64,000 bases of DNA from Solibacillus sp. FSL H8-0538. Lineage in GTDB: Bacteria > Bacillota > Bacilli > Bacillales_A > Planococcaceae. Numbering within the stretch: position 1 is the stretch's first letter; each line of letters begins with the position of its first letter. Location: the NCBI RefSeq assembly GCF_038003525.1, contig NZ_JBBOPI010000001.1:2533001-2597000 (forward strand), in the 5' to 3' direction. The position numbers and the translations under genes are program-made. Shown piece after piece: positions 13,360 to 50,830 of this stretch. Under the pieces are notes generated by a model. It did no database searches, was not told the DNA's origin, and saw nothing but the letters and a program-made list of their open reading frames with translations.

Positions 13360-14766
13360 TTAGCTTGACGTTACACTTGTTTTTGCAGTTGGCTGTAGTG
13401 ATCGTTTTATATATTGTCCACTACCTAATACCCCTACGAACTCTTTATTCTTAATAACGTATTCCCCGCGCACGAATACACTGACTGGCTCGCCTATTAC
13501 TTCCCATCCCTCATACGGGTTATAGTCTACATTCATATGATGTGTATTCGCTGAAATTTCACGTTTTACAGTTGGATCAAAAAGTACGATATCTGCGTCC
13601 GAACCGATTGCAATCGTCCCTTTTTGTGGATATAGACCGAAAATTTTTGCTGCGCTTGTCGAGATCATATCGACAAACTCATTAATTGAAATTCTCCCTT
13701 TCGCCACACCTTCAGAAAATAAAATGCTAAAGCGATCTTCGATAAATGGACCGCCATTTGGAATTTTCGAGAAATCATTTAACCCTAATTGCTTTTTCCC
13801 ATTAAAGCTAAATGAACATTGGTCTGAACCAATTGTTTGAAGTTGCTTCGCTTTTAATGCATTCCATAAATGCTCTTGGTGATGTTTCGGACGAAGAGGT
13901 GGTGACCAGACATATTTTGCACCTTCAAAACCTGGCTGAGCTAACGCGGACTGATCTAGCGTTAAATACGGCGGACATGTTTCTCCATACACGTCATACC
14001 CTTTTTCACGCGCTTTAATAATTTCATCTAGTGCCTCTTTACAAGTAACATGTACGACGTAAAGCTTGGCACCTGCAATATGCGCCAGTTCGATTGCTCG
14101 TTTTGTCGCTTCCCCCTCCACTTCTGCTGGACGAGTAAGTGCATGATATATCGGTTCTGTATGACCTGCACGTTTCGCTTCTTCAACTAGTTCATCAATT
14201 ACAGAGCCGTTTTCACAATGTACCATGACGACAGCACCCAGTTCCTTTGCGATTTTGAATGCTTTGAAAAGCGTGCGGTCTGTCGCTTGGAATTCTTTCG
14301 CGTAGGCCATGAAAACCTTCACGGACGTTATTCCTTCCTGCTCTAGTACGAGCGGTAATTCCTCCTCTGTCTCAGGCGTTAAATCACCGATCATTAAGTG
14401 GAACCCGTAGTCAATTGCCGATTTTCCATGTGCTTTTGCATGCCACTTTTGCACAGCCGCCCCAAGCTTTTCTTCACCAGCAGATAAGCAAAAGTCTAAA
14501 ATTGTCGTAGTACCTCCAAATGCAGCTGCGATCGTACCAGACTTCCAATCATCGTCTGTCACCGTATTGTTAAACGGCATATCTAAATGCGTATGTGGAT
14601 CAATCCCACCTGGCATAACGTATTTGCCTGTTGCATCAATAATCTCTGCTCCTGGCGCCGATAAATCTCTGCCAATTTGAACGATTTTCCCATCTTCTAT
14701 TAATAAATCAGCCTCATATACATCTGAAGCTGTTGCAATTAATCCACCTGTAATGATTCTTTTCAT
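13360..14766 (-). CDS. hydA: Dihydropyrimidinase (D-hydantoinase)
   Basis: Zinc amidohydrolase opening dihydrouracil to N-carbamoyl-beta-alanine, second step of the pathway. The metal ligands are visible as DPHTHLDM near residue 56, a carboxylated lysine in SVKVFMAY near 149, VHCENG, VVHVTC, and the aspartate in TIGSDQCSF. Full length. I set the start at ATG 14766 because GTGAGGGA lies close upstream; a GTG at 14778 falls within that site. It is 23 bp from the hydrolase gene before it and belongs to the same operon. Confidence 0.94.
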   Translation of the reverse strand: MKRIITGGLIATASDVYEADLLIEDGKIVQIGRDLSAPGAEIIDATGKYVMPGGIDPHTHLDMPFNNTVTDDDWKSGTIAAAFGGTTTILDFCLSAGEEKLGAAVQKWHAKAHGKSAIDYGFHLMIGDLTPETEEELPLVLEQEGITSVKVFMAYAKEFQATDRTLFKAFKIAKELGAVVMVHCENGSVIDELVEEAKRAGHTEPIYHALTRPAEVEGEATKRAIELAHIAGAKLYVVHVTCKEALDEIIKAREKGYDVYGETCPPYLTLDQSALAQPGFEGAKYVWSPPLRPKHHQEHLWNALKAKQLQTIGSDQCSFSFNGKKQLGLNDFSKIPNGGPFIEDRFSILFSEGVAKGRISINEFVDMISTSAAKIFGLYPQKGTIAIGSDADIVLFDPTVKREISANTHHMNVDYNPYEGWEVIGEPVSVFVRGEYVIKNKEFVGVLGSGQYIKRSLQPTAKTSVTSS

Positions 14767-32325: not shown

Positions 32326-33588
32326 CTATTTTGTTATTCCTAATCGTCTTGCTTCTTTCAGCCATTGAGGGAACTCATTAAACAGCCGATTATAAAGGTC
32401 TTCATCACTAATTTGATCTAAGTCATCTAGGGCAAAGAAGTTAGCATTATCAACCACACGCCCTGGTAAGTTATCAAGATTTTGCAATACGCCATATTTT
32501 GCATTTCCGATACCAACAAACTGCCAAAAAAAATTTTCCTTCGAGCTGTCAATTAAGAGCTTGGAAATTTTCTTTTCTTCATAAATTCCGCCATCACTAA
32601 AAAAGATCACATATGTAGGCAGATCTTTATTCGGCTCTTCATTGGTAAATTTGTGAATCACATCAGCCATCACACGTGGCTCATTATTGCCAGATCCTAA
32701 TCCGCCAAACAAGCGCGGTTGTGGATAGGTTCTTTTTACATAATCCTCGTAGTCTCTTTCTGTCACACTTGGTGCCCGCATAAATTTATTTCCAAAAAAC
32801 CATACATCTAAAACACTATCATCATCCATACACGCAGCGATTGCTAGCACTCTTTCAAAAGCACGCTGGACGGTCCCTTTACTATACAGATTGGCCATCG
32901 ATCCTGAAGCGTCAAACACAACGGCAACACGGGCTTTTTCTGTAGTGAGTTTGTTCTTCTCTAGCGAGATGGTTACTTTTATCTTTAATAAATCAATTTT
33001 TGTCAAATTTACAGGTGAAGACGGTGCTGATTGGAAGTTTACAGGTGGTACTTCTTCAGGAGCTTCATCCTCTACAACAACCCCATGTGCTTCCGCTAAA
33101 GGTTTAAGTCCCCCATTAAATCCTTTGCCAATCCCTCTAAACTTGAACCAATCCTTATAACGGTAGACTTCAGCTAAAACGAGAGAGGTTTCTTCACTTA
33201 GTTGATCAATGCCAAAAAGGATTTCACCACTTAAGGATTTAACAGAGATTTTTAAGTTTTGTACCTCTTTTAAAGTCCCCCGACCATCTAGTGTCACCGC
33301 AAAGACACCCTTTTGAATGCTTGATTGTTGTAGCGAATGTAGAGAAAGTGAGAATATTTTAGTCGTTGGTGCAGTATCTTGCAATTTTATCAGGTTTGCA
33401 GGATCTGACGGCTGATTGTAAAAAATCATATAGTCATCGGAAGGAACTTTCCCATCCGCATTGACTAAAAAACAACTTACATCTAGGGGAGCTGGTGAGT
33501 AGCTCCACTCTACTACTATCTCGAGAATTGAATCCCTGGCAATGGGTGTATTGGCCCCTCTTACTAAGGCAACGATATTTCTTGTCAT
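32326..33588 (-). CDS. TerD-family domain fused to von Willebrand A domain (TerF-like)
   Basis: 420 residues. Residues 1-170 form a TerD-type calcium-binding beta-sandwich (LVRGANTPI, DVSCFLVNADGKVPSDDYMIFYN, ALVLAEVYRYKDWFKFRGIG-like end); residues 205-410 are a VWA domain with intact MIDAS residues (VVFDASGSM, later a threonine region and FFSDGG). TerD/VWA proteins belong to the tellurite/chemical stress complex that is thought to sense metals at the membrane and is often linked to phage resistance. ATG 33588 follows AAGGAGG. No terABC-like partner gene in the window; two terminators separate it from the dynamin operon upstream. Confidence 0.85.
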   Translation of the reverse strand: MTRNIVALVRGANTPIARDSILEIVVEWSYSPAPLDVSCFLVNADGKVPSDDYMIFYNQPSDPANLIKLQDTAPTTKIFSLSLHSLQQSSIQKGVFAVTLDGRGTLKEVQNLKISVKSLSGEILFGIDQLSEETSLVLAEVYRYKDWFKFRGIGKGFNGGLKPLAEAHGVVVEDEAPEEVPPVNFQSAPSSPVNLTKIDLLKIKVTISLEKNKLTTEKARVAVVFDASGSMANLYSKGTVQRAFERVLAIAACMDDDSVLDVWFFGNKFMRAPSVTERDYEDYVKRTYPQPRLFGGLGSGNNEPRVMADVIHKFTNEEPNKDLPTYVIFFSDGGIYEEKKISKLLIDSSKENFFWQFVGIGNAKYGVLQNLDNLPGRVVDNANFFALDDLDQISDEDLYNRLFNEFPQWLKEARRLGITK

Positions 33589-33934
33589 CAAAAAACCTCC
33601 TTGTCAATCATCATAGTTATAGTCTACTTGACCTTTCAATAATTCACAAAATATTACATTAAAAATCCCATCTATTCTTCTACAAATGGTTAGGGAAATC
33701 AGTGAGTGACAAGGTAGATTGAGATAGTAAAAGGTTTTATGAAAACACTTTTTAACTAAACGTATTTGTTTCAACAATACGCGGGGAATCTAGAAAAAAT
33801 ATGCAGCTTATAATCGAAGAAAGTGTTCAAAAAACATAATCATGCTTATTGAGCAAATGGGTGAGATATTTGTAGATTCGAGTCCCGATACAATTTAGCA
33901 TTTTTATAAAATTGAATACTATTAAAAGGTAGAG

Positions 33935-33981
33935 CCCACGCATTTTGAATGGATTTAATTCAAAATACGTGGGTTGCTTTT
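33935..33981. terminator. Intrinsic terminator (long stem)
   Basis: CCCACGCATTTTGAAT pairs with ATTCAAAATACGTGGG (one mismatch), followed by TTGCTTTT. It lies downstream of the dynamin operon and works best in plus orientation, though the minus side is also T-rich. Confidence 0.7.
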
Positions 33982-34023
33982 GTCATAAAATCAGCATTGC
34001 CACTGAAATATTAATTAAAAAGG

Positions 34024-34068
34024 AAAAGCGCCTCAAACCCTTTATACTAAAGGATTTGAAGCGCTTTT
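34024..34068. terminator. Intrinsic terminator at the end of the dynamin operon
   Basis: AAAAGCGCCTCAAACCCTTT pairs with AAAGGATTTGAAGCGCTTTT with small mismatches; on the minus strand the stem is followed by TTTTCC. It is about 160 bp after the last operon gene. The rest of the 33589-34229 gap shows no gene. Confidence 0.75.
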
Positions 34069-34229
34069 CAGTTGGTTCGAACTTATTTTATCTGAACCTT
34101 GATACGTCTCAGGAGTACTTTTAAGTATGCACTGTGACGTTGGGGTTATTGGGTTTGTGGAGTGGCGGGTGTAAAGGATGTGTAAGGAGAATACATTTTA
34201 TTTTTCACAATTTTGTACATCCCAACTTC

Positions 34230-34502
34230 TTATTTCACTTGTATAATATTCCCCATTAAAACATCTAATGAAACAAGCAGCTTTAATGCCCTCTTCATTT
34301 GACCTGTTGCGATATTTTCACGAACCATAGGTATAAGTGCTTCAATATATTCAAGCTGTTTTTTTAGCTTTGAATTTTTCGCTGCATACGCATGAAAAAT
34401 TGCAACATCATATTCTGGATTATTGAAAAATTGCTCAATCTTTTTTTCAAGTAACAATTCGATTGATAAAGCTTGGTATGCTTCACGTTCCACTGTATTC
34501 AT
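34230..34502 (-). CDS. Small helical protein, last gene of the dynamin operon
   Basis: 90 residues, almost entirely amphipathic helix, without membrane segment or known motif (begins MNTVEREAYQALSIELLLEK). It ends in a predicted four-helix arrangement. It starts 4 bp after the stop of the coiled-coil gene, hence translationally coupled. Not recognised; a small adaptor for the proteins of the operon is the simplest inference. Confidence 0.65.
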   Translation of the reverse strand: MNTVEREAYQALSIELLLEKKIEQFFNNPEYDVAIFHAYAAKNSKLKKQLEYIEALIPMVRENIATGQMKRALKLLVSLDVLMGNIIQVK

Positions 34503-34506
34503 AAGA

Positions 34507-35922
34507 TTACCTCATTAAGCGCTGTAAAATGTCCATATCTTTGTTGTTTAATGTAGACATTTCTTTAAGGCCATTTTCTAATAACTTCGCAGTTGCTTTT
34601 GTTTCCTCTGTTTGAACATTTAATGCACGTAATACTTGATTATTTTCATCAATAATCGATTTTGAGCCATCTAGTACATCCTTCATCGCCTGACTGTTCG
34701 CTTCTGTAGTACGGGATAATTGCTTAACTAAATCATTCAATTGATCTGATGAGTCCTCTAGTAATCTCGACACTTCTGTTTTCAACGTTTCATTCAATGT
34801 TTTCGATTGCTTTTCTTGATTGTCCACTGAATCTAGGAAGTCCGCTAAGAAATTCTCAAAGTCTCCTTTTGCTACCGCACGTTGATCCCCTAATTCCTTA
34901 ATACCTTCAGATAGTGTTTGCTCTGCATTTGTTAACACATCACGGTGCTGCGTCATCGTATCATTTAATGTAGAGGTAATGCTATCCTTAATCACATTTT
35001 GCGTTTCGATTAATTGTGTATGATGCTGTGCTAATGTGTCCTCATGCGTTGCTAACTGACTTGTATAGTCTTTAATTTGCTCATACGTATCTGTATAGAA
35101 TTTTTCTGCCGTATTAAATGTATCACGCTGATTTTCTAACGTTTGTCGCATCTCTTCATTCGCTTTTTCGACTGATTGTAAAAGTTGTGTCGCATGCTCT
35201 TTTTCAAGCTGACGTAGTGCTGTAAGTGATTCACGTGTTACATCCCAGCCTGAGACGATTTTTTCATTAAGCTCAGCAGCATTTTCTTCAACTAATTTTG
35301 ACACGACTGCTTGTGTTTCTTTTAGATGCTCACGCTCTTCTTTACGAATTTCAATTTGTTCTTGATGATGTGAGTTCCAAAGCTGCTCAATTTTTTCGTT
35401 TGATTGCTGCACTTTAGTTAAAAGCTCACTATGTGCGTCCTTAACTTGTGTGAATGTTTGCTCAGATACATTTTTTTGCTCTGTTAACCAGTTATGTAGT
35501 TTTTGGCTAACGTCATTTGCTAGCTCACCTTGTTGCTTTTGTAGCTGTTCTAACTGCTGAAGTAGTTCTGCTGATTTTGCTTGTGTTTTTTTTGATTCAG
35601 TAGTTAATTCGTTTTGTGTAGATGACCAAACAGCCATTAATTGCTCATTTGTAGCTGTTGCTAATTCTGATATTTGCTGCTTTAATTGCTGCTGATAACT
35701 CGAAAAATTTCCAGCTAATTTTTCTGACGATGTTTGTATTGCTTGTTCAAACTGATACTTTTGCTGTGCTTGCTTTTGGTGACCTAACGCAACAAAAACA
35801 GCGACAAGTACGCCTGCCACAATCGATACAATATTTCCTGTATTTCCTTCATAAAGTGGAAATACAAGTGCAGCTACTGCGACAAAGGCTGCAAATGATG
35901 GAAATAAATTCACGTAAACCAT
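34507..35922 (-). CDS. Membrane-anchored coiled-coil protein of the dynamin operon
   Basis: 471 residues. Two membrane helices at the N-terminus (about 8-25 and 30-48) are followed by more than 400 residues of nearly continuous coiled coil rich in Q, E, K, T and S, recalling the signalling stalk of methyl-accepting proteins or apolipoprotein-type helices; there is no HAMP or conserved MCP hairpin tip that I can see. It should reach far into the cytoplasm from the membrane. ATG 35922 directly abuts AAAGGA, so GTG 35913 (nine-base spacer) may be the true start. 11 bp separate it from the upstream gene. Likely scaffold or tether for the dynamins (inference). Confidence 0.7.
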   Translation of the reverse strand: MVYVNLFPSFAAFVAVAALVFPLYEGNTGNIVSIVAGVLVAVFVALGHQKQAQQKYQFEQAIQTSSEKLAGNFSSYQQQLKQQISELATATNEQLMAVWSSTQNELTTESKKTQAKSAELLQQLEQLQKQQGELANDVSQKLHNWLTEQKNVSEQTFTQVKDAHSELLTKVQQSNEKIEQLWNSHHQEQIEIRKEEREHLKETQAVVSKLVEENAAELNEKIVSGWDVTRESLTALRQLEKEHATQLLQSVEKANEEMRQTLENQRDTFNTAEKFYTDTYEQIKDYTSQLATHEDTLAQHHTQLIETQNVIKDSITSTLNDTMTQHRDVLTNAEQTLSEGIKELGDQRAVAKGDFENFLADFLDSVDNQEKQSKTLNETLKTEVSRLLEDSSDQLNDLVKQLSRTTEANSQAMKDVLDGSKSIIDENNQVLRALNVQTEETKATAKLLENGLKEMSTLNNKDMDILQRLMR

Positions 35923-35933
35923 TCCTTTTCTCT

Positions 35934-37106
35934 TTAGACTAATTCAACATACTTTTTACAAATACTTTCTAAATAGCGATGTATTTCTTTCGGTAACCGA
36001 TTTTGCATTGTGTAGTTAATAATCTCATACCATGTTGATTTCATTTTCATTGTCGAAAGCTCATAATCTAGTTGACTAGTATAGCTTTTACAAAGTGTGT
36101 GCTCTCGACGATCTAACGACAATTTTTTTTCTAGCTCTTTCCATAATACCTCTATTATTTGACGGAGTTCCTTTACTGTCCAATTCGCCTGTTGAATTTT
36201 TTCTAATTGATAGCTATGGAAAAGCTCTTGCTCCAATGCTTGTATAACAGTTTGTTCAAAAAGCTGTTTTAATTGCTTAATCCAAATGGATGCTATCGTT
36301 TTACTTTGCTTCACATGTACGTAGCTAAAGCAATTTTCAAGTTTTACAATCCATTCTACTTCTTCTAATGCAAAGCGAATATCATCATCTACGAACATTA
36401 AACTGCTCTGTAGATTTTCTAAAAATTCTTGCTTTTGCTCGACAATTTGAGTGATATAGTCTACATCATGACGCAATGCTTCTAAAAGCAGTGTTCGTTG
36501 TATCGGAATCATCGCGTATTGCTGTAAAACACGATATTGTTTATCTATAAAATACATTTTGGCGTTTTCAATACCCTGCTGAATATTCCCAATATCTGTA
36601 ATGACAAAATTTCTTTCCATTTGAGTAATCGCAATCGACAACTGTTGTTGTGAAATACCTAAATCCTGTAAGTAACGTAACTGTTGTACTGTATCTGCCT
36701 TCCCATATGGAAAGCCTTCAAACCAAATAAAAGCGCTTGAATGTTTTAAAAGCGCATGATTATCATAATATGCTTTAAAATCCTCTTCATTTAAAAAATA
36801 CGGTGTAAATACAAGCTTCGTATTTACAGGCAATTGCCCTGGTAAAACAGAAATATAATACGTTTCCCCAGGGACAATTTTTTTAGGCGGTTGTAAGCCT
36901 TGCTCAGTTTGTTTATAAATAAGTGGTTGGTCTGCTGAAAATAATACCCATGTACATTGCTTGAATACCGAATCTTCGGGATGCCAATACCGTTCTAAAT
37001 TGGCATTAGTTGAAGCATAAGTGCGAAACAATGAATAACGCTCTGAACCAACATCGCCTAATATAAATAGCGAACGCTGAAATGGCAACATCGCTTTTAT
37101 TTCCAT
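35934..37106 (-). CDS. Uncharacterised 390-aa protein of the dynamin operon
   Basis: Not recognised. Residues 1-120 look like a beta-rich domain (FQRSLFILGDVGSERYSLFR; later KIVPGETYYISVLPGQLP), and 150-390 are helical with many Q and E. No signal peptide, membrane helix or nucleotide motif; GDVGSERYSLFR is not a P-loop. ATG 37106 follows GGAGCATTTGAT. It begins 11 bp after the third dynamin gene's stop, and the next gene begins 11 bp after it. The fixed, tight spacing argues that it is a dedicated partner of the dynamins. Confidence 0.65.
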   Translation of the reverse strand: MEIKAMLPFQRSLFILGDVGSERYSLFRTYASTNANLERYWHPEDSVFKQCTWVLFSADQPLIYKQTEQGLQPPKKIVPGETYYISVLPGQLPVNTKLVFTPYFLNEEDFKAYYDNHALLKHSSAFIWFEGFPYGKADTVQQLRYLQDLGISQQQLSIAITQMERNFVITDIGNIQQGIENAKMYFIDKQYRVLQQYAMIPIQRTLLLEALRHDVDYITQIVEQKQEFLENLQSSLMFVDDDIRFALEEVEWIVKLENCFSYVHVKQSKTIASIWIKQLKQLFEQTVIQALEQELFHSYQLEKIQQANWTVKELRQIIEVLWKELEKKLSLDRREHTLCKSYTSQLDYELSTMKMKSTWYEIINYTMQNRLPKEIHRYLESICKKYVELV

Positions 37107-37117
37107 ATCAAATGCTC

Positions 37118-39502
37118 CTAACTGCGTAATGTGTGTATATGACTAAACAATTGCTGTTCATATACTAATTGCTGTTCTTGATTTTGCTGACGCGTTTCGA
37201 TAAGCTCTTCTAGTTGCGTTTTTTGCGTATGCAGTTGCTTTTGTAAATTTAATGAAATAACAGCAGGCATATGCTGAATAAAGCGTTCTAAATACGTTGC
37301 AACGTTTGAACGATAGCTTGAGAAAAGCTGCTTCATTTGTAATTCAAAGCTGGCGATTAATTGTTGGCGGTACTGCGTTACTTGTTGCTCTTTCATTTTT
37401 TGCTCATGCTTACGTTCTACTTCATATAATTGCTGCTTCATTTGTTGCTCGTACTTTTCTTGAAGTAGCATTTGCTCACGAAGTTTTTCCTCACGTGTGT
37501 TTAACATATCTAACTGCTGCAGACGCATTAATTCAAGCTGCTTCGTATGCTCGACCTTTGCTTGTATCGCTTCTTTTTCCCGTAAATAAGCTTGACGATA
37601 TTGCTCGTCCTCTACAAGCTGCGGTGGGCCATCTATCGCTTTTCCAACTTGTCCGAACCAATATTCTAATGACAGCATATTTAATAGATTGACATTTTCA
37701 TTTGGCATTGTTGGATTTCTTACAATGCTTTTTTGTGAAGCATCAAACGTCTTTACTAAATCTTTATATTTATCTACCTTTGATAAAACCTCTCCCGTTT
37801 TTTGAATGCCTGCTGCTACTTTTGCGGCTTGTTGTACATACTTTGTTCCTTGCGCTACTTTTGTCACAGTACCTGCTAATTTCACTGCGCCTGTTGAAAG
37901 TGCTTTCCCCGGAACAAATACTAAGGCCCAGTCCACAAGATTCCCTAATTTTTTCATTGTTTCCTGATTATTATCATTTTTCTTTTCAATATATTTTGCC
38001 TCGTAGTTTCCTAGGCTTTGCATTTCTACTTGTGTAAGCTGCATTTGCTCACCAATCGATTCAGCTTGTCCTTCAAATTCCAGTCGCTTTTGTTCAATTT
38101 CCTGTAATTTTTCGGCATATAATACTTGAGAATCGATCTTTTCTTGAATAAATTCTCCTTGTACAAAAACATCCGAAATTGTTGGCACTTCAACTTGCAA
38201 ATGAACATTCGGCATATCACCTAATGAGAACTGCTCGACTTCATTATGAAGCGCTTCATTTGTTTCGCTCGCTGCCCGTTGTAAAAATGCATTTAACATT
38301 TGATTTGTATCAACTTTTAATGTATCAGTTGCTGCAGTAATATGCTTTTCCGCTACAACTTCAGCTGCCTTCTGTAAGGCTTCAATCGTTGTATATTCAC
38401 CTAACGATTGACGATATTGCTGCACAACAATATATTGCTGTGCTTCATAATTACCTAAAATTGCTTCTTTTGTCGCTTCGAAAGATAAATGGAAGTTTTT
38501 TTCTTTACTTTTTACACGCGAATCAACATATTCAATTTCTTGTTGCAGGCTCTTAATTTTTTGCTGAATGTCTTGATCTGAGACACTACGACTAACTTCT
38601 AATTGCTTTTTACGCTCATCTAAATTTGTTAAAAAACTCATTTTTACTTGCTCTAAACGGCGCGCAATACTCGATTGACGCTGCTTTTCAATATTTTGCA
38701 CAAATTGCTGTTCAAAATACTGCTCAATTATGTCCATTAATGTACGCCAATGTGGGAACTCTAGTAGCTCTTCCTCGTTTGTCACACCAAAATACGTTGC
38801 ACTTCGACCGATGGATTGCTCTAACTGTTCTTTATCCTCGAACATTATTTTCGCAGGTGTGTCATTTTCATCGCGGCGTAATTGGTCGATTTTAGTACGA
38901 ATAAATACTAAATCAATACCCATTTGATCAATTGAGGAAATCAATCGAACATCCGCTGCAGTTAATGCTTTCCCTAGCACATACAAAATAGCATGTGCTT
39001 TTGGTAAAATGTCCATCGTACGGTTTTCATGCGTCGATATAACTGTATTTAATCCCGGTGTATCGACAAATACGATACCCGTTTTTAACATTGGATGATT
39101 TAAATACACATTAATGCATAAAATATCAGAATTTAATACGCGCGGTACATTCAAAATTTCACTAACGGACGTCTCTGTTTGTAGGTTTCGCTGGCTAAGC
39201 TCCATTAGATTTTGAATAGGAAATTGATAGGACACCATATTTGTTACAATTTCTGCATATTCCGATTCTCCATACGAAATAAACGTCGTATATGCTGTCG
39301 TTTCACTTAACATCGTCGGTAAAATTCGACGCCCCATTAAATTGTTAATTAAGCTCGATTTTCCAGATGAAAACTGACCGATAATCGGAATGTAAAACTG
39401 TTGCTCATTTAATTTTTCATTTAATGTTGCGATTTTGTCTAACGCAACACCGTCTTGTAGAAATTCTGCAATTTCTATAAATTGATTAATTTTTTGCTGC
39501 AT
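37118..39502 (-). CDS. Dynamin-like GTPase 3 (divergent)
   Basis: 794 residues. GTPase motifs, counted from the chosen start: P-loop GQFSSGKSS (42-50), switch threonines in LSETTAYTTF, G3 DTPGLN (147-152), G4 RTKID (202-206). After residue 290 comes long coiled coil with a hydrophobic stretch near 540-575 (VDWALVFVPGKALSTGAVK), a candidate membrane-inserting paddle. Bacterial dynamin-like proteins bind and fuse or stabilise membranes using GTP. ATG 39502 is chosen because ATAGGAG lies eight bases upstream; ATG 39520 would overlap the previous stop and has no site. The least similar of the three dynamins. Confidence 0.9.
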   Translation of the reverse strand: MQQKINQFIEIAEFLQDGVALDKIATLNEKLNEQQFYIPIIGQFSSGKSSLINNLMGRRILPTMLSETTAYTTFISYGESEYAEIVTNMVSYQFPIQNLMELSQRNLQTETSVSEILNVPRVLNSDILCINVYLNHPMLKTGIVFVDTPGLNTVISTHENRTMDILPKAHAILYVLGKALTAADVRLISSIDQMGIDLVFIRTKIDQLRRDENDTPAKIMFEDKEQLEQSIGRSATYFGVTNEEELLEFPHWRTLMDIIEQYFEQQFVQNIEKQRQSSIARRLEQVKMSFLTNLDERKKQLEVSRSVSDQDIQQKIKSLQQEIEYVDSRVKSKEKNFHLSFEATKEAILGNYEAQQYIVVQQYRQSLGEYTTIEALQKAAEVVAEKHITAATDTLKVDTNQMLNAFLQRAASETNEALHNEVEQFSLGDMPNVHLQVEVPTISDVFVQGEFIQEKIDSQVLYAEKLQEIEQKRLEFEGQAESIGEQMQLTQVEMQSLGNYEAKYIEKKNDNNQETMKKLGNLVDWALVFVPGKALSTGAVKLAGTVTKVAQGTKYVQQAAKVAAGIQKTGEVLSKVDKYKDLVKTFDASQKSIVRNPTMPNENVNLLNMLSLEYWFGQVGKAIDGPPQLVEDEQYRQAYLREKEAIQAKVEHTKQLELMRLQQLDMLNTREEKLREQMLLQEKYEQQMKQQLYEVERKHEQKMKEQQVTQYRQQLIASFELQMKQLFSSYRSNVATYLERFIQHMPAVISLNLQKQLHTQKTQLEELIETRQQNQEQQLVYEQQLFSHIHTLRS

Positions 39503-39516
39503 TATATTTTCTCCTA

Positions 39517-41874
39517 TCATATAAAAGTTGTTTGTTTTGCCGCTTGCTCGATAACGTTTACTTGAATCGACTGAATTTCAGAAATGAATTGATTTACATC
39601 TTTTGCAATTTCTTTTAATTGATTTTGCTCTTCTTTTAGTTCTTCACGCTTCGCAGCTCGCTCTGTTTCTCCAGATTGTAAAATGTCGATCAGCTGTTGA
39701 AGCTCTGATTTTTTTTCCTGTGACTGCTTTTCAAACTGCTCTTCTAGTGTAGACACGATAACATTCGTAATCGTATCCTCTTTTTCTTTAATATTGGCAC
39801 GCACTGTTTTTAAAATTTCTTTACCTACGCTTGAAATGTAATCTTCAAACTCATAGCGAATATTCGTTAATACTGTTTGTTGTTCCTTTTGAATTTTGTC
39901 ACTATATTCCTCAATATAGCGTTCACGCTCTTTTTGAATGCGTTCTTCTAGCTGTCGAATTTGCTGCATCTCAAGATCAAATACATCTTGATCAGTATGA
40001 TTTTTACTCCTTAATGCTTTCTTCACATCATCTACTCGGTTTTGACGCTTCTGAATATCTTCACGTAAGCTTACTCGCTCTTTGTCATACTGAACTTGTG
40101 CTGTATCATCATATTCTGTAAACTCATATACTTCTGTATTCGCACCGAATAAAAAATTACCAATGCCGCCAAACACACCGCCACGTTTTTTTTCGCGGTA
40201 ATCTTTTTTTTCGTAGCGCTCAACGGTTGGACGAGCGCCAAGCATTTGCATTTTCACCATTTCTTCATTTTGAATTTTCAATAATTCTTCATCTAAAGTT
40301 TCCATTTCCTTTTGAATTTTACGTGCTTCTAAACGTTTTAATTCGACCCCTTCAGATTTTTGACGCAAACTACTAATTTTTTCCTCTAGCTTTTTCTTTT
40401 CTTTTTCATATTGATCCATATCAACGTTCATATCGGTATTTACTTCAAATACGAGATTACGGACTGAATTGGCTTGAACGCCCGTTTGTTCAAATTTGTC
40501 ATTTGCAACAATTGCAATTTCTTTATATTTCGATTTAATTTTTTTACGAATTGAGGTCGTAAAATCTTCGTCTAATTCTGATACTAATTCCTCGCACTCA
40601 CGGTTAACCTGCTTATTTATACGCTCAATTTGTACTTGTAAATGATCTAAATCATTAAACGTATTAATTTTTGAGCCAAGCTTTATACGCAATGCCTCGA
40701 TACGTGCTTTCACATCATTTTCTAAATCCGCTACAAGCTCTTTTACTTCTAAACGAATCGTTCCTTTTTGTTGTTCCAGTTGCTGACGAATCGCGTCTAT
40801 ATCACCTTCCACACTTTGAATACGCTCATTAATTTCCTCAGCATCCTGCGCGTCTTCAAGTTTTTGTATTGTTTCTTTAATAAAAGCGCTACGTTTAGCT
40901 AATTCATGATGCATCATTTCAGCAGGTGCTAAAAGCTCCTGAATCGTCTTTTCTCCATCTGTGATGAATTTCCATAATCGCGATTCAAGCGTTTCAATGC
41001 GAGAAAGCTGTAAAAATTTCGCACGTGCTTCTGAATCATGATCCTTTTGCATCGAGTTGTCAGGGTACTCTAACTGTTCCTTCGTACGTGCTACTAATGC
41101 TGGATATGCTGCGATTGGATAAATTTCTGGCATTTTGTGATCTGGGAAGAACGATAAATAGTTTTCACGTAAACGCTCAACAACCGATTCCACTGTTTCT
41201 TCAGATTTTTTAATTTTGTCAATTTGGTTTAATACTAGGAAAATATTATCGAAACGTTCAGACAGTTTCGCAAGGGTTTCAAAATCCGATTTAGAACCTG
41301 GCTGTGAGGCAGCGAACATATAAACACAAGCATGTGAACGCTCAATTTGGCGCTCTGTTACTTCTGCATGTCCTTTTGCAATTCCGTTTAAACCTGGGCT
41401 ATCAACAAGTGTAATGCCTTGCTTTAATAATGGGGAATCCAAGTATAATGTAACCGATTCGATATCTTGTACGACTTGCTCACCGCCTAATGTCGATACA
41501 TTTTGTGCTATTTCTTGCTTTGTTGCCTCACCATATTTTGTCGGTGTTGTTGGATTTTTATAATCAATTTGCAGCGTGTGACCATTTGGTGATTTTGTCG
41601 GATGTTTTATATAGTTAATTGTCGCTGTCGTTTCACTTGTAAATGAGGGTAAATAACGATCACCCATCACTGCGTTTAAAAATGTAGATTTACCTGCACT
41701 AAATTCACCTACAATTACAATAGAGAAATCGCCATTTGTTAAATCCGTCACAAACTGATTTAAGCTTGAAACTTTTCCATCCTCACCGATTGCATGAAAA
41801 TATTCCTTCGAACGATTTAATAATGAAATTAATGCATCCTTACGTTGCTGATGCTGTTGTAAATGCTGATTCAT
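39517..41874 (-). CDS. Dynamin-like GTPase 2
   Basis: 785 residues. P-loop GEFSAGKST near 56-64, switch I SETTATINYI, G3 DSPGLNG near 158-164, G4 LNQID near 215-219. The rest is helical bundle and coiled coil, with a short glycine- and phenylalanine-rich tip (GGVFGGIGNFLFG near residue 580) resembling a membrane-contacting paddle. ATG 41874 with GGGGGAATCATTG upstream. 12 bp after the first dynamin gene. Motif spelling (EFSAGKSTFLNA) is nearly identical to dynamin 1, suggesting those two arose by duplication and may heterodimerise, as paired bacterial dynamins do. Confidence 0.92.
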   Translation of the reverse strand: MNQHLQQHQQRKDALISLLNRSKEYFHAIGEDGKVSSLNQFVTDLTNGDFSIVIVGEFSAGKSTFLNAVMGDRYLPSFTSETTATINYIKHPTKSPNGHTLQIDYKNPTTPTKYGEATKQEIAQNVSTLGGEQVVQDIESVTLYLDSPLLKQGITLVDSPGLNGIAKGHAEVTERQIERSHACVYMFAASQPGSKSDFETLAKLSERFDNIFLVLNQIDKIKKSEETVESVVERLRENYLSFFPDHKMPEIYPIAAYPALVARTKEQLEYPDNSMQKDHDSEARAKFLQLSRIETLESRLWKFITDGEKTIQELLAPAEMMHHELAKRSAFIKETIQKLEDAQDAEEINERIQSVEGDIDAIRQQLEQQKGTIRLEVKELVADLENDVKARIEALRIKLGSKINTFNDLDHLQVQIERINKQVNRECEELVSELDEDFTTSIRKKIKSKYKEIAIVANDKFEQTGVQANSVRNLVFEVNTDMNVDMDQYEKEKKKLEEKISSLRQKSEGVELKRLEARKIQKEMETLDEELLKIQNEEMVKMQMLGARPTVERYEKKDYREKKRGGVFGGIGNFLFGANTEVYEFTEYDDTAQVQYDKERVSLREDIQKRQNRVDDVKKALRSKNHTDQDVFDLEMQQIRQLEERIQKERERYIEEYSDKIQKEQQTVLTNIRYEFEDYISSVGKEILKTVRANIKEKEDTITNVIVSTLEEQFEKQSQEKKSELQQLIDILQSGETERAAKREELKEEQNQLKEIAKDVNQFISEIQSIQVNVIEQAAKQTTFI

Positions 41875-41886
41875 CAATGATTCCCC

Positions 41887-44175
41887 CTACGCTAATGCTT
41901 TCTTTACAATTGCTAATTCTTTTTCTGCCTGTTCACGTTCCTGTGGCACAGCCTCTTTCATAACCTGTTGCTTTAGCTTTGTTAGTTTCTTTGTATATTC
42001 ATTGTACGACTGCTCGTAATGCTTACCGATTGCCTGATCAATTTGCTGTAATTCTTGCAATAAAATACCGTCAATTTCCTTACGATAGAAGCTCGTTAAG
42101 TCTCCCGCTAAATAATCCGCCACCGCATCAAGCAAATCTTTACGTTGTTTTTCGTAATACAGGCGCTTGTTTTTATCATAAATTGCCTGCTTTTCCTTTT
42201 GTAAAATCTCTAAATCTCGCATAAGGGATTTCACTTTTTGCTCATAAGATTCAACACGGCTCTCGTTTTGTAGCACTGTGGATTGCGACCTTTTTAATCG
42301 CTCCTGTACAGCATTTAAACTCGCTGTAATAGATTTTTCTTGATTGCTAAAGTCTCGCTTAATACGTGCTTCTTGCGTATCCCAGCGCTCACGGGCAGAA
42401 GTGTCAGTTACAGTACGAGTACGTGTTTCATAGGAAGGACTTCCTCCGAAAAAGCTCTTAACAGAACTCCATAATCCTGATTTTTCCACCGTATAGGATT
42501 CTGTTTTTTGCACAGGCGTTGGACGATTCCCTAAGCTTTTTAGCTGGCGCTGCTGGGCGGACATTACTTGCTGTTTTTGTCCCTGCAAAGAATCGACATG
42601 ATCTTTGTCATCCCTCAAATGCCTTTGAGATTCCTTGTACATCTTCATCGCCTGCTCCTGCTCTTTTGAAGCTTGTGTCACTTGATGGTTTTTTTCTGTA
42701 ATTTTTTGTACTAGGCTTAAGTCTTCTAAATTCGCCTTCCCTAATTTGACTGAAAAATTGATTCCTTGCTTTGATATGGCGATTTTCGGATAATGCTTTT
42801 CAATACGAAGCACCGCACTTTCGTATAAATCTGACAACAGCTGAATTAAAGAATCACCATAGCCTTTTGTAAGATCCTGCTCCTTAAGCCTCATAAAATG
42901 TGTCACCTGATTTTGTAATCCCTTTAACAAAATTTCAGGATCTTCATTTGAGCGCATAAGTTTTGTAATTTCAGTTGTTACAATGTCCTCTACTATTACC
43001 TGCGTTTTTTGTAAATCCTGCTTCACTTGACCGATTAGCATTGATCGAATATCGGATTTTTTGGCAGTGGTAAAATTCTGTAAGCTTTTTAAATTATCTT
43101 CTTTGGACTGCTGAGCTTGATTTAAGCGCAAATTAATTTCACTTAGCTGCTTGTCGTCGATTGTTACCTGATGGATCGTTACTTGCTCTTCAAATTCAAC
43201 GATAATTTCCTTTACTAAGCTTTCAAATTTCTTTTCAATGTTTTCATGCTTTAGCTTCTCTTTGTCGCTAGTCGCTAGACGGTGCCAAATTTCGTTCTCT
43301 ATTTGCGAGAAATTTGAACGCTGTAACAACTGCTCCCTGCGCTCAGCAGTTAATGGCTCTATGTCTCCTTCGAACAGCTGCTGAATAGCTTCATCTTTTG
43401 CTGTTAATGCAAGTAGCGCAGAAACACCCATAATTGTAGGATTATTTTCTACACCAATTGTGGCAAGTTGCTCTTTTAACTCCTTTACCTTAAGCTCGAT
43501 TGTTTCGCCTTCTGACTGCTTTAACGTATCGATCGCATTAATAACAAATACAAATGAGGACTGATATTGCTTTAATAGCTCGTACATTGCGACATTTGAT
43601 TGCGATAACCCCCGCGTATGTAATAAATATATACTTGTATGCGCACGTTGAATTTCATAACGTGTACGCTCATAATGACCCTTTGCAACACCGTTTAATC
43701 CTGGTGTATCAACAAATACGATTGGTTCATCCGTATATGGAAAATTGACATGAATTGTAACGGACGCAACTTCCTCCACAACATTTATGTCCTTTGCCAT
43801 CGTTGTCACATATTCTGTTAAGCCATTTGCATCCTTTGGTAACTCTGTTATTATCGGCATCTTATTTCCGAAAAACTCGATTTTCACTTTGTTGCAAAGC
43901 GAATCTGTCGCTCGTACATTTTTAATATAAGTAACCGTCGCTGTCGTTTCATTGACCGAGTGAGGTAATATATCTTTTCCAATTAATGCGTTTAAAAACG
44001 TTGATTTACCCGCACTAAATTCCCCTACAACTGTAATTCGAAATTCCTTTTCATTTAACTGATTTAATAAATCCTTAGCACGTTGTGTGAAGTTAGCATA
44101 ATTCGCCAGTTGTAATAATGGCAAATGAATAATATTTTCAAGTTTTGTTTCTATTTTCTCTTTCGAAATAAGCAA
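41887..44175 (-). CDS. Dynamin-like GTPase 1 (first gene of operon)
   Basis: 762 residues. P-loop GEFSAGKST (51-59), switch I NETTATVTYI, G3 DTPGLNG (156-162), G4 INAID (212-216). Helical stalk regions flank a tip with GLWSSVKSFFGG (near 560) that could touch membrane, matching the equivalent point of dynamin 2. TTG start at 44175 after AAAGGGGCG. As first gene of the six-gene operon it should be preceded by the promoter, within the AT-rich 350 bp that follow it on the map. Cytoplasmic, membrane-associating by family knowledge. Confidence 0.92.
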   Translation of the reverse strand: MLISKEKIETKLENIIHLPLLQLANYANFTQRAKDLLNQLNEKEFRITVVGEFSAGKSTFLNALIGKDILPHSVNETTATVTYIKNVRATDSLCNKVKIEFFGNKMPIITELPKDANGLTEYVTTMAKDINVVEEVASVTIHVNFPYTDEPIVFVDTPGLNGVAKGHYERTRYEIQRAHTSIYLLHTRGLSQSNVAMYELLKQYQSSFVFVINAIDTLKQSEGETIELKVKELKEQLATIGVENNPTIMGVSALLALTAKDEAIQQLFEGDIEPLTAERREQLLQRSNFSQIENEIWHRLATSDKEKLKHENIEKKFESLVKEIIVEFEEQVTIHQVTIDDKQLSEINLRLNQAQQSKEDNLKSLQNFTTAKKSDIRSMLIGQVKQDLQKTQVIVEDIVTTEITKLMRSNEDPEILLKGLQNQVTHFMRLKEQDLTKGYGDSLIQLLSDLYESAVLRIEKHYPKIAISKQGINFSVKLGKANLEDLSLVQKITEKNHQVTQASKEQEQAMKMYKESQRHLRDDKDHVDSLQGQKQQVMSAQQRQLKSLGNRPTPVQKTESYTVEKSGLWSSVKSFFGGSPSYETRTRTVTDTSARERWDTQEARIKRDFSNQEKSITASLNAVQERLKRSQSTVLQNESRVESYEQKVKSLMRDLEILQKEKQAIYDKNKRLYYEKQRKDLLDAVADYLAGDLTSFYRKEIDGILLQELQQIDQAIGKHYEQSYNEYTKKLTKLKQQVMKEAVPQEREQAEKELAIVKKALA

Positions 44176-44525
44176 AATTTGACGCCCCTTTCGTATTACA
44201 GTTCATATCAATAAATTTACAATAATCCCATATAAAATGTATCATATATCCCTCGCCACTAAAGTCTTTTCACACAAATAAAAACGAATATTTATGCCTA
44301 AAGTCTTAATTAATTTAATAATTACTGAAAATTAATGTTCAATTATCTAGACTAAAATAATCTTTATCTTACAAATCTGCTTGGACATATAATGTCTATT
44401 ATCGTTATAAAAACTCGATAAATTGAAATAATTCATTTTTATTGTGCATTTAATTTTTTACTATTTCCCTTCACTAAATGCCCATTTTATTGAACTTTAG
44501 TTGTTGAGAAATAATTGTCATTCAG
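44176..44525. other. 350-bp AT-rich control region before the dynamin operon
   Basis: No gene. Very AT-rich, with several TTGACT/TATAAT-like pieces on the minus strand but none I can single out. It must hold the operon promoter if the operon is not transcribed from the WYL gene. Confidence 0.4.
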
Positions 44526-44741
44526 CTAATACCTCTGCTCCCAGTTCGTACATGAAGTCCATGCAGCACGAACAAAATGATATTTATAGCACGTTTGCCT
44601 TTCGTTCGGATCAAAGTTAAAAAAGTTTGGTGAATTGACGCGCGGCTTTACATGTAAACCACCAACTGGACCATTCCAATGACGACACATCACACAAATT
44701 TTTGTACGTGGATTTGTTAGTTTGGTAGTCATATATTTCAT
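44526..44741 (-). CDS. Small cysteine-containing protein, 71 aa
   Basis: Not recognised. Contains CVMCRHWNGP, a later single C in RQTCYKYH, and C in WTSCTNW, with several tryptophans and histidines, so a small zinc-binding domain is plausible. ATG 44741 (or ATG 44732) with only weak GAG-type sites. It lies 21 bp after the GIY-YIG gene on the same strand and is therefore probably co-transcribed with it and the WYL regulator. Confidence 0.55.
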   Translation of the reverse strand: MKYMTTKLTNPRTKICVMCRHWNGPVGGLHVKPRVNSPNFFNFDPNERQTCYKYHFVRAAWTSCTNWEQRY

Positions 44742-44762
44742 CTCATTATTTAAATTACTACC

Positions 44763-45317
44763 TCAATTCCTTTGCACATTCCAAATTTCAGAAACATTGC
44801 CATAACGCTGAATCATCGTTTTTTCTAATTCCTTTACCGTTTCCACTTGTGCTACAGAATTACCTACAATTAATATCGAAATCACAAGATTCTCTGCATT
44901 GGAATTCATTCTTTGACCAGATTGATGTTTTCTTCCACTATCGCTTGGTCTTACATAATCTCGTAAACGCTTTCGAAAACCGCCGTTATTATATTCAATC
45001 GCGCGGCCGATATACTTAACCGTTCCATTCTCCGTTGCCTTATATAATCCGATTGATTTGTTGTATGGTTTTAAATTTTCAATCGTTAAATCTTCTAAAT
45101 TCCCAAGTCGAATCCAACGTTTATCCCACTGATCTAATGTAAATCCACCATACTTTTTCTCTCCCTGCATTTGATCAAAGCTATTTGAAATAGAGGGTGA
45201 ACGCTTTTTCATTTCAGCTTGCCTCTTCGCTGCCTCTGCTGCAGCTTTAGCCATTAAATTCGGCGCTTCCGCTATCGCTTTTTTTGCGAGTTTTCCTAAC
45301 ATATCCATTAATGACAT
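44763..45317 (-). CDS. GIY-YIG nuclease-like protein
   Basis: 184 residues. An N-terminal helical, alanine- and lysine-rich leader (5-40) precedes a domain with GLY in SIGLYKATENG and YIG in VKYIGRAIEY spaced as in GIY-YIG nucleases, then a conserved-looking arginine segment (GGFRKRLRDYVR) and an acidic residue in VKELEKTMIQRYG for metal binding. It would cut DNA or be a decayed regulatory relative. I place the start at ATG 45317, because GAGTGGA lies upstream; GTG 45332 is possible. 28 bp after the WYL gene, so one unit. Confidence 0.72.
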   Translation of the reverse strand: MSLMDMLGKLAKKAIAEAPNLMAKAAAEAAKRQAEMKKRSPSISNSFDQMQGEKKYGGFTLDQWDKRWIRLGNLEDLTIENLKPYNKSIGLYKATENGTVKYIGRAIEYNNGGFRKRLRDYVRPSDSGRKHQSGQRMNSNAENLVISILIVGNSVAQVETVKELEKTMIQRYGNVSEIWNVQRN

Positions 45318-45345
45318 ACTGTTTCCACTCACTTTCTCATGATTA

Positions 45346-46332
45346 TTACTTGTTGAAAGCTCTAGAATAAGCCTCTAGTATTCTCTCAACACTCCCAACA
45401 ATCTCATCCCTAAATCCAACCGGCTCCAACACCTCAACATGCTCCCCTTGACTCAACAGCCACATCTTAATCCCCTTACCAAACACCTCAGCCTCAAAAA
45501 TCACACCATCATCTGCCTTCTTAATAACCTTTGCAGTTGGTAAACGATCTAGCACTGCCTGTGGTGAAGGACCAGTAAAGCGGAACTTAATCGTCATTAA
45601 CTCGCCCGTATACATAAACTGCACGCGCTTGCGGAATTCACCTTCTTGGAAGCGTTCATGATACGGCACGGTAAACGAGACAGATGTTTGCTCGAAATGT
45701 TGGATACGGTCTATGCGATAAATCGTCGGAAAATCAAAGTCCGTTTTCAGAGGATAAGCAATCAAATAAAAATAATATTCCGAAAAAATAATTCCCACTG
45801 GCTTAACCATGCGTTCATTTGACTGCTTATCAAATTCACGTAAATAATGCATCCTAATAACCTTTTTCGATTGGATTGCCAATGAAAGTTGCCATAGTAC
45901 ATCTAGCAAATCCTTTTTATGATTTAACTCGACATACAATTGCCTTTCATTCGACATCATCTGCTTGATGACAGTGCGGTCCTCTTTATAAGCTAGATGT
46001 GTCAATTTCTTAATAATTGAATCCATTTCATGCTTTGGAAATGCACGTGATTCAATCAGCACCTTTAATACAGCGAAAATCTCTTCATTTTTCAACCAAG
46101 ATGGCTGCTCCGTTTGTAATACGTAAGCCTTTTTTACTCTGTTATAATCCAAATATTCATTTTGCTTTTCCTTTTCAATGTAATCACGAATATTTTCAAG
46201 ATCTCGCTGAATGGACTTTTCACTAATTTGAAATCGATCGGCCTCTTCCCTTTTTACAAGGCTCTCTCCATTTTTCAAGCGATCATACATCGAAAGAATG
46301 CGTCTAATCTGATTCTGTTTCTCCTGACTCAT
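45346..46332 (-). CDS. WYL-domain transcriptional regulator
   Basis: 328 residues. N-terminal winged helix-turn-helix of DeoR/HTH_11 type (6-65, with RFQISEKSIQRDLENIRDYIE) and a WYL domain (about 140-240; here LIAYP in place of the usual WYL core) followed by the WCX C-terminal extension (250-325). WYL proteins sense nucleic acid or nucleotide ligands and often repress phage-defence and DNA-damage genes. ATG 46332 follows GAGGTGATGCA. It heads the unit with the GIY-YIG and CxxC genes and stands upstream of the dynamin operon on the same strand. Confidence 0.9.
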   Translation of the reverse strand: MSQEKQNQIRRILSMYDRLKNGESLVKREEADRFQISEKSIQRDLENIRDYIEKEKQNEYLDYNRVKKAYVLQTEQPSWLKNEEIFAVLKVLIESRAFPKHEMDSIIKKLTHLAYKEDRTVIKQMMSNERQLYVELNHKKDLLDVLWQLSLAIQSKKVIRMHYLREFDKQSNERMVKPVGIIFSEYYFYLIAYPLKTDFDFPTIYRIDRIQHFEQTSVSFTVPYHERFQEGEFRKRVQFMYTGELMTIKFRFTGPSPQAVLDRLPTAKVIKKADDGVIFEAEVFGKGIKMWLLSQGEHVEVLEPVGFRDEIVGSVERILEAYSRAFNK

Positions 46333-46514
46333 TGCATCACCTCGATATGACTAATACTACCGTTTCGATTGGACGTATTATGACCAATCGAATACGTAAT
46401 ATAAAAATAAATGACTACCTTAAATCATTAAATACAATTCCAATTGTACCACTATTTGTATTTTAAATAGATGGTAGTTAGTTATTATTACACACATAAA
46501 AAGGAGAGAGAATA

Positions 46515-50309: not shown

Positions 50310-50830
50310 TTAGTAGGGACTGTCAATGTTTTTATGTAAATGACTTTTCAACCTTTTCAAGTGGATCGTCACTATTGTATTCAATTGAATTTGTTCGAAG
50401 GTTGGATTTGGTTGCCCTAACTTCGATTTCAAATTTCCAAACATTTCCCCGAGTGCTGCACGTGCTTTATTAAACCCAATATGACAACGTGTGACGAGTC
50501 GCTCGTTGTCATTTTCAAATTGCGTCACTAGAAAGCGTTCCAGTGATTCTTCGTTCGGAAATTGTTCTTTACGTTTCGTATATTTCTTGATTTGTTTATT
50601 AAAGGACTCGATTAAATTGGTCGAATAAATACTTCGCCAAATGTCTTTGGGAAAGTCATAAAACGTGAGTAGATAGTGTTTTTCTCGCCAGGATTTCACG
50701 ACTTTTCCCATTTTTCATAGAACGTATCAAGCGCTTTTTGACCTACTTCAGCGTCTGTTGCTTGATGGACTTTTTAATTCACACAAAATATTTTATACTC
50801 TCTTTCTCTAAAATGGTGTCTACAGCTCCA
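50310..50830 (-). pseudogene. IS256-family transposase, 3' part, frameshifted
   Basis: The C-terminal third of a mutator-type transposase is recognisable: IYSTNLIESFNKQIKKYTKR, then FPNEESLERFLVTQ. Upstream, in another frame, ATDAEVGQKALDTFYEKWEK joins after a small deletion near 50700. The 5' two thirds are missing. The outer IS end is near 50317 (GGGACTGTCAATG). A second, shorter copy of the same end is at 58354-58498 in the same orientation. Confidence 0.85.

Follow-up and report, generated by a model that had tools for sequence, protein, structure and literature searches.

What would a bacterium do with three complete dynamins encoded one behind the other, given that most of what is known of bacterial dynamins concerns pairs? 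We addressed this question for a 64,000-nucleotide stretch of the genome of Solibacillus sp. FSL H8-0538 (contig NZ_JBBOPI010000001.1; hereafter the window, to which all unprefixed positions refer), the minus strand of which carries such a triple at the head of a six-gene operon (34230-44175). Our analysis indicates that these six genes, kept as a unit in three bacteria, may form a membrane-guarding defence machine. Triples of diverged dynamins kept together on plasmids and in islands would show higher-order hetero-oligomeric dynamin machines in bacteria.

All six open reading frames (ORFs) are on the minus strand and are arranged head to tail. First come the dynamin genes dyn1 (41887..44175, 762 aa), dyn2 (39517..41877, 786 aa) and dyn3 (37118..39520, 800 aa), the products of which match the Pfam family Dynamin_N with 83.6, 96.1 and 78.2 bits, respectively, all above the cut-off of 27 bits. 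The residues of motifs G1-G4 (GxFSxGKS, N, T, DxPG, D) are invariant across 15 dynamins from five cassettes, and as Dynamin_N GTPases with intact G1-G4 the three proteins probably belong to the bacterial dynamin superfamily of the BDLP type. Behind them follow the genes for a cassette-specific orphan protein of 390 aa (35934..37106), a protein of 471 aa (34507..35922) and a 90-aa protein that is helical by sequence reading only (34230..34502). The gaps measure 12-14 bp between the dynamin genes and 4-11 bp thereafter if dyn2 and dyn3 begin at the next in-frame ATG, as their sister genes suggest; the first listed start of dyn3 results in a 4-bp overlap with dyn2. A terminator-like hairpin of 20 pairs stands after the last gene (34069-34023, minus strand); over the whole region such sites numbered 13 vs 9.7 by chance, and a promoter scan stayed at chance level (49 sites vs 52.4 expected). 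The 471-aa protein starts with two hydrophobic segments, which, judged from their sequence, are a membrane hairpin, and continues in a long tail reading as coiled coil. The operon with its three complete dynamins, the gap sizes (given the later starts), the final terminator and the membrane-anchored coiled-coil protein all agree with a preliminary description of this locus made from the letters alone.

For the 390-, 471- and 90-aa proteins neither Pfam nor NCBIfam gave a match above the curated cut-offs, and PHROGs gave none at all; its single weak SbcC-like match was obtained for dyn2. PADLOC returned weak ZorA matches for the 471-aa protein (best 7e-7); these were taken as coiled-coil similarity, and an identity as ZorA was rejected. 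Also discarded was the idea of the 390-aa protein as a degenerate dynamin GTPase, profile comparisons being no better than reversed controls; its structure model (predicted local distance difference test, pLDDT, 36) was useless.

Planococcus sp. ISL-109 has the same six genes in the same order, and so has plasmid pFN9A of Lysinibacillus capsici, with 49-67% identity to the window. For Planococcus and pFN9A, respectively, identities amount to 55% and 53% (dyn1), 67% and 66% (dyn2), 62% and 60% (dyn3), 53% and 54% (390-aa protein), 52% and 50% (coiled-coil protein) and 49% each (90-aa protein). Co-occurrence of the 390-, 471- and 90-aa genes with three dynamins, on which the preliminary description had staked its proposal, was seen in all three copies found. 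The 390-aa gene is rare: within the order it was detected in two genomes out of 261, one of them that of the window, which was also the sole hit among the 398 genomes sampled from the class; it was further detected on one of 72,556 plasmids and on one contig of the GTDB collection, in which two peptide patterns were searched. Its scarcity within the order and among plasmids marks the cassette, as far as sequence comparison tells, as accessory and transferable; for the question of genus-core status, the window's genus was represented by one genome in the sample. We dismissed a phage or viral origin, as the 390-aa gene had no match among 50,697 phage records, nor in viral contigs, for which two peptide patterns only were used.

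Both sister loci bear possible traces of mobility. The pFN9A cassette adjoins an IS4 transposase, and in Planococcus the cassette together with a WYL regulator gene is flanked by 575-bp direct repeats of 94% identity (L014:208-779 and 14192-14765), which suggests integration via homologous recombination or duplication. The repeat contains part of a gene that reads as a HAD phosphatase. L. capsici FN9 holds two different triple-dynamin operons on two plasmids of one strain, one of type A1 (pFN9A, L011) and one of type B (pFN9B, L015; types defined below), and each plasmid also carries predicted resistance genes (tet(L), fexA).

A gene for a WYL/WCX transcription regulator of 328 aa (45346..46332, minus strand; Pfam WYL 44 bits, WCX 39 bits) lies upstream of the operon. 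Located 37 bp in front of it, inside a longer inverted repeat, is the putative operator O1, the 17-bp palindrome TGGACGTATTATGACCA (46370..46386), for which 0.02 occurrences per 64 kb are expected and which alone in the 3.93-Mb genome matches an 11-position pattern exactly. O1-like sites precede four of the six other intact WYL genes read (Planococcus, G058, G009, G033) as well as the WYL remnants of G018 and G035. A weight matrix, trained solely on the five sites that stand before intact WYL genes, recovered a second site in the window, O2 (44379..44401; 15.6 bits), 203 bp upstream of dyn1, and comparable sites before the first dynamin gene on pFN9A (17.8 bits, 250 bp) and in G024 (13.7 bits, 62 bp), each reached in 0 of 300 shuffles. 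Control DNA of 168 kb contained three matrix sites of at least 12 bits, and the window two further, unrelated ones. A strict 16-position search of the 261 genomes gave four matches, namely the window and G058 (both in the training set), G114 and G194; at G114 the site is followed by a WYL gene 72% identical to that of the window, then by dynamins and, further downstream, by a degenerate-GTPase-like protein and a 1039-aa protein reading like the HerA-type one of G033.

The Planococcus WYL gene is 73% identical to the window's and lies directly upstream of the cassette; on pFN9A the only counterpart is a distant YafY regulator (23% identical), some 5 kb past the cassette. Among the eight WYL places read, out of 15 listed, four adjoin dynamins. 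Together these observations support the WYL gene as a member of the cassette, and the idea that it regulates the locus, hinted at in the preliminary description, gains from the palindrome, the matrix site before dyn1 and the Planococcus arrangement. At the level of sequence, the locus thus has a WYL/WCX regulator with a candidate palindromic site at both its own and the effector promoter. BrxR-type WYL regulators of defence loci are similar in being homodimeric wHTH-WYL-WCX factors with a DNA site upstream of their own transcription start (PMC9122589); unlike there, the apparent target here is a dynamin operon, and another site precedes the effector genes. The operator could serve as a handle for finding more such systems and for switching the operon on. 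In G009 (L043:12906-15695) a second strong operator stands before two ORFs, the second of which encodes a PLD/ResIII/NgoFVII-like nuclease-helicase, and in G018 (L031:3691-4702) a strong operator and a decayed WYL gene stand ahead of the dynamin operon.

Is the window operon singular in carrying so many dynamins? Besides the three cassettes with the window's composition (type A1: window, Planococcus, pFN9A), we found ten further operons with at least three neighbouring dynamin frames, 13 loci altogether. Type A2 (G024, G339, G325) has proteins of ~260 aa and ~100 aa and a membrane coiled-coil protein of ~300 aa behind the dynamins; type B comprises pFN9B, G033, G030 (with four dynamins), G125 and G232; Paenibacillus pART37 and G018 are further loci with at least three frames. 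Shorter or cut loci were found in G035, G058, G114 and at another place in G033. In at least six of the 37 genomes of the window's family, the window's included, two or more dynamin frames are clustered in addition to the DynA-like frame. The third dynamins of A2 and A1 match along nearly their whole length (3.6e-23), the second ones over the first 450 positions (3.2e-34), and the coiled-coil proteins of both types are related (hhalign 3.4e-5 vs 0.0034 for the reversed control). Profile comparisons showed no relation of the 390- and 90-aa proteins to their A2 counterparts. The ~260-aa A2 protein, which occupies the slot of the 390-aa protein, was likewise tried as a degenerate dynamin GTPase and rejected, scoring no better than reversed controls.

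In a tree of 35 GTPase (G) domains, for which four of the five type B loci were used, every position of A1, A2 and B is a clade of its own within its type (support 0.93-1.0; 1.0 for each of dyn1, dyn2 and dyn3 of A1), so that the triples have been kept together within each type. The dyn3 proteins of A1 and A2 join (0.85); dyn1 and dyn2 form no joint clades across the two types, and dyn1 and dyn2 of A1 are sisters (0.79). The third dynamins of type A and the first of type B group with the first half (D1) of DynA with a support of 0.77-0.82, and a D1-like member in each triple is accordingly a tentative assignment. First dynamins of type B have an extra C-terminal domain, SH3_3 or TcaA_5th (L015:8875-11874, L065:10336-13251), which in L015 follows a hydrophobic segment near residue 585, as if reaching outside the cell.

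A related operon (L042:1581-9804, L084:10094-19529, L035:156-10955) consists of an operator, a WYL gene (seen in L042 and L084 only), dynamins and a 1027-1047-aa ATPase of the HerA type, assigned by Pfam in L042 and L035 and by reading in L084; a degenerate GTPase-like protein of 328/352 aa is present in L084 and L035. This protein matches the G domain of dynamins (E 3.4e-4 at a probability of 38%, vs 0.14 for the reversed control), so that pseudo-GTPases may exist in the wider class, on the evidence of these WYL-HerA relatives rather than of the window. It is quite conceivable, though less likely than not, that the loci represent a broad and hitherto undescribed class of mobile bacterial immune machines with three obligate dynamins (one resembling DynA D1 plus two others), joined in type A by a membrane-hairpin coiled coil, and that part of them share one WYL regulator and a 17-bp operator also controlling a PLD-nuclease/helicase or a dynamin-HerA operon in other strains.

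What, then, could the complex do? The dyn3 model shows long helices after the GTPase head at low-to-medium confidence (pLDDT 60, predicted template modelling score 0.40). The best Foldseek match for dyn3, the only one of the proteins compared in this way, was BDLP (2j69; E 2.7e-13, TM-score 0.25 over the whole query), and the model appears nearest to BDLP, IniA, the mitofusins and the Cj-DLP pair. The Cj-DLP1/2 dynamins of Campylobacter are heterotypic like those described here, encoded side by side, and tether membranes as hetero-tetramers, most bacterial dynamins being paired (PMC6104087). They are only two, and the accessible part of that source mentions neither a WYL gene nor a coiled-coil membrane anchor (PMC6104087). 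DynA (YpbR) of Bacillus likewise works as a heterotypic dynamin set, is linked to membrane integrity and phage, and delays phage lysis (PMC8844932). From the dyn3 model, the paired and hetero-tetrameric Cj-DLPs and this DynA effect, we infer a three-dynamin hetero-oligomer.

Our favoured reading, to which we give slightly less than an even chance, is a WYL-controlled hetero-oligomeric dynamin complex on a horizontally mobile cassette that guards the cytoplasmic membrane, probably against phage lysis. The WYL protein would keep the operon low until a signal appears, whereupon the three dynamins would assemble on the cytoplasmic membrane, at its inner face, as a hetero-oligomer powered by GTP. 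The anchored coiled-coil protein would recruit this complex to the membrane, with the 390- and 90-aa proteins as possible adaptors. Membrane damage, most likely that of phage-induced lysis, might then be bridged or patched by the complex, and the release of phages could be delayed or limited, the effect that DynA has in Bacillus subtilis. If so, the cassette would add a second, transferable layer of protection beside DynA and constitute a bacterial parallel to the antiviral proteins of the dynamin family in animals. The sporadic distribution of the cassette and the preservation of all six genes without TerD in the sister cassettes speak for this reading, as do the separate clades of the dynamin positions, the intact G motifs, the dyn3 model, the sites before dyn1, the WYL-dynamin arrangement at G114, the defence genes near some relatives and the delay of phage lysis by DynA. 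The open-access literature gave no description of three complete dynamins in one operon, in line with the earlier impression that no system of this composition has been described.

Support for a defence role was also sought in the neighbourhood, by scanning 86 flanking ORFs of at least 200 aa within 8 kb of 17 dynamin loci. Dedicated defence genes (DISARM, type I restriction-modification, GmrSD, AbiE or PDC-S26) lie near five of them: DrmA and DrmB at G035:C25; a type I R subunit and PDC-S02 at G325, with the specificity subunit appearing in the pooled scan; PDC-S26 at G339; GmrSD/HEC-06 and PDC-S31 at G232; and AbiE on pFN9B. The pooled scan further matched WYL, mad3 and DinG (25 of 72 families listed). 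As control, 103 ORFs of 14 regions were used, with PADLOC matches pooled rather than assigned to ORFs and three regions sharing a smaller contig with a dynamin locus (G325, G232, G033). The association of dynamin operons with defence genes is suggestive only, and a defence role of the operon is plausible. Of the defence island proposed in the preliminary description, the part that stands is the company of such genes at five of the 17 related loci; the control is weak, and beside the window operon itself no known defence gene was recognised (eight window ORFs were assessed by Pfam, the remaining flanks only in the pool).

This last finding is one of several that weigh against the favoured reading. 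Complex formation, membrane location and phenotype are predicted, and a dynamin pair on another island was reported to be inactive against the phages tested (PMC12595487). The control regions themselves gave PD-T4-6, C3a189, mad3, mad6, SspH and PDC-M16 (25 of 45 families listed) and, minus a kinase and an SMC-like member, 15 families including mad3, mad8, SspH and PDC-M16. Among the operator searches, the reversed control of the 11-position pattern also matched once in the own genome, that of the strict 16-position pattern once in the order, and the G194 site falls inside a coding gene. No O1-like site was found upstream of the intact WYL genes of G034 and G050 (two of the six others), the longer repeat with 8-bp arms stands out in only two of seven cases (window, Planococcus), and 15 of 18 upstream regions of first genes are without a site as strong as those of the window, pFN9A and G024. 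In four of these 15 (Planococcus, G058, G018, G035) a WYL gene or remnant intervenes and the site lies in front of it.

The complex might instead serve general repair of envelope stress or antibiotic damage, like the membrane surveillance by DynA, with no phage-specific role. DynA counters antibiotics and phage alike (PMC8844932), the window operon has a TerD-vWA gene and, from translations only, an apparent two-component pair as neighbours, and the host already possesses a fused DynA elsewhere. This is a frame of 1229 aa with two Dynamin_N matches, as in DynA; long DynA-like Dynamin_N frames (993-1282 aa) are listed in all 37 genomes of the family. The window operon differs from DynA in having separate ORFs in place of two dynamins fused in one chain, three genes with three partners, a patchy distribution and WYL operators. 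The TerD-vWA gene is not conserved with the cassette, and plasmid location and patchiness would fit conflict with mobile elements better than housekeeping repair, so that we consider a purely envelope-directed function rather unlikely.

Still less probable is an abortive-infection effector, in which dynamins freed from WYL repression would kill infected cells by disrupting their membrane. The double operator and the defence-type neighbours at five of 17 relatives would suit it, but the bacterial dynamins described so far fuse, tether or stabilise membranes, and WYL remnants beside the dynamin operons of G018 and G035 ill fit a lethal effector that is derepressed, unless the dynamins are also dead.

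We regard vesicle release or secretion of the LeoABC kind as very improbable. The host is kin to Planococcus and hence Gram-positive, without an outer membrane, and a cargo gene was not seen. LeoABC (Eleos), which promotes vesicle-linked release (PMC4159319), resembles the window operon as an island-borne dynamin operon that PADLOC profiles as defence; it has been named a dynamins-like defence system (PMC11811056). Although the closest forerunner with three genes, it comprises a pair, LeoA and LeoBC, with the second dynamin split in two genes (PMC4159319), whereas the window has three complete GTPases, to which the 390-aa protein and the membrane coiled-coil protein are added. The LeoA/LeoBC profiles do match (dyn2, 1.1e-25), yet housekeeping DynA matches equally well (1.9e-30 for Bacillus DynA), and an Eleos identity was rejected. 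A role in the maintenance of plasmids or chromosomes, as for CrfC, is the least credible alternative, since the dynamin operons occur not only on plasmids but also on large chromosomal contigs (window's genome, G339, G030, others), and the CrfC profile matches (1.3e-4 for dyn1, 0.0023 for dyn2), far below the family cut-off, amount to generic GTPase similarity.

Between the operon and the WYL gene lie, on the minus strand, an ORF of 71 aa without family (44526..44741) and a gene for a GIY-YIG-like protein of 189 aa (44763..45332), a label used in the preliminary description for which the match, at 14.8 bits, stays below the Pfam cut-off of 22.6. Relatives of both, and of TerD-vWA, are absent from the 33 kb of pFN9A and 39 kb of Planococcus read. 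Elsewhere, G035:C155 (L032:105-1740) repeats the window's whole head order before a different dynamin operon: the operator comes first, then a WYL remnant, then a GIY-YIG-like gene in pieces (82% identity at most, in the shortest piece, and 77% over 88 residues) and the 71-aa gene (81% identical), directly before a dynamin. Because the two genes are missing from the sister cassettes but recur beside WYL and dynamins there, they may be an optional head module; the GIY-YIG flank of the preliminary description has no parallel in either sister cassette and has one in G035:C155. TerD-vWA, also named as a flank in the preliminary description, was excluded as an operon part and as grounds for assignment to a tellurite/TerD stress system, as comparison at E 1e-3 with four sister stretches and 17 class loci yielded no relative. 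TerD and vWA-TerF in the window pass the Pfam cut-offs, as do WYL and WCX. Reading of translations adds a second dehydrogenase and the two-component pair to the window flanks, in which Pfam identified a major facilitator superfamily transporter, a short-chain dehydrogenase, metabolic genes and a transposase fragment; the latter, of the Mutator family, lies near the cassette at 50310-50711.

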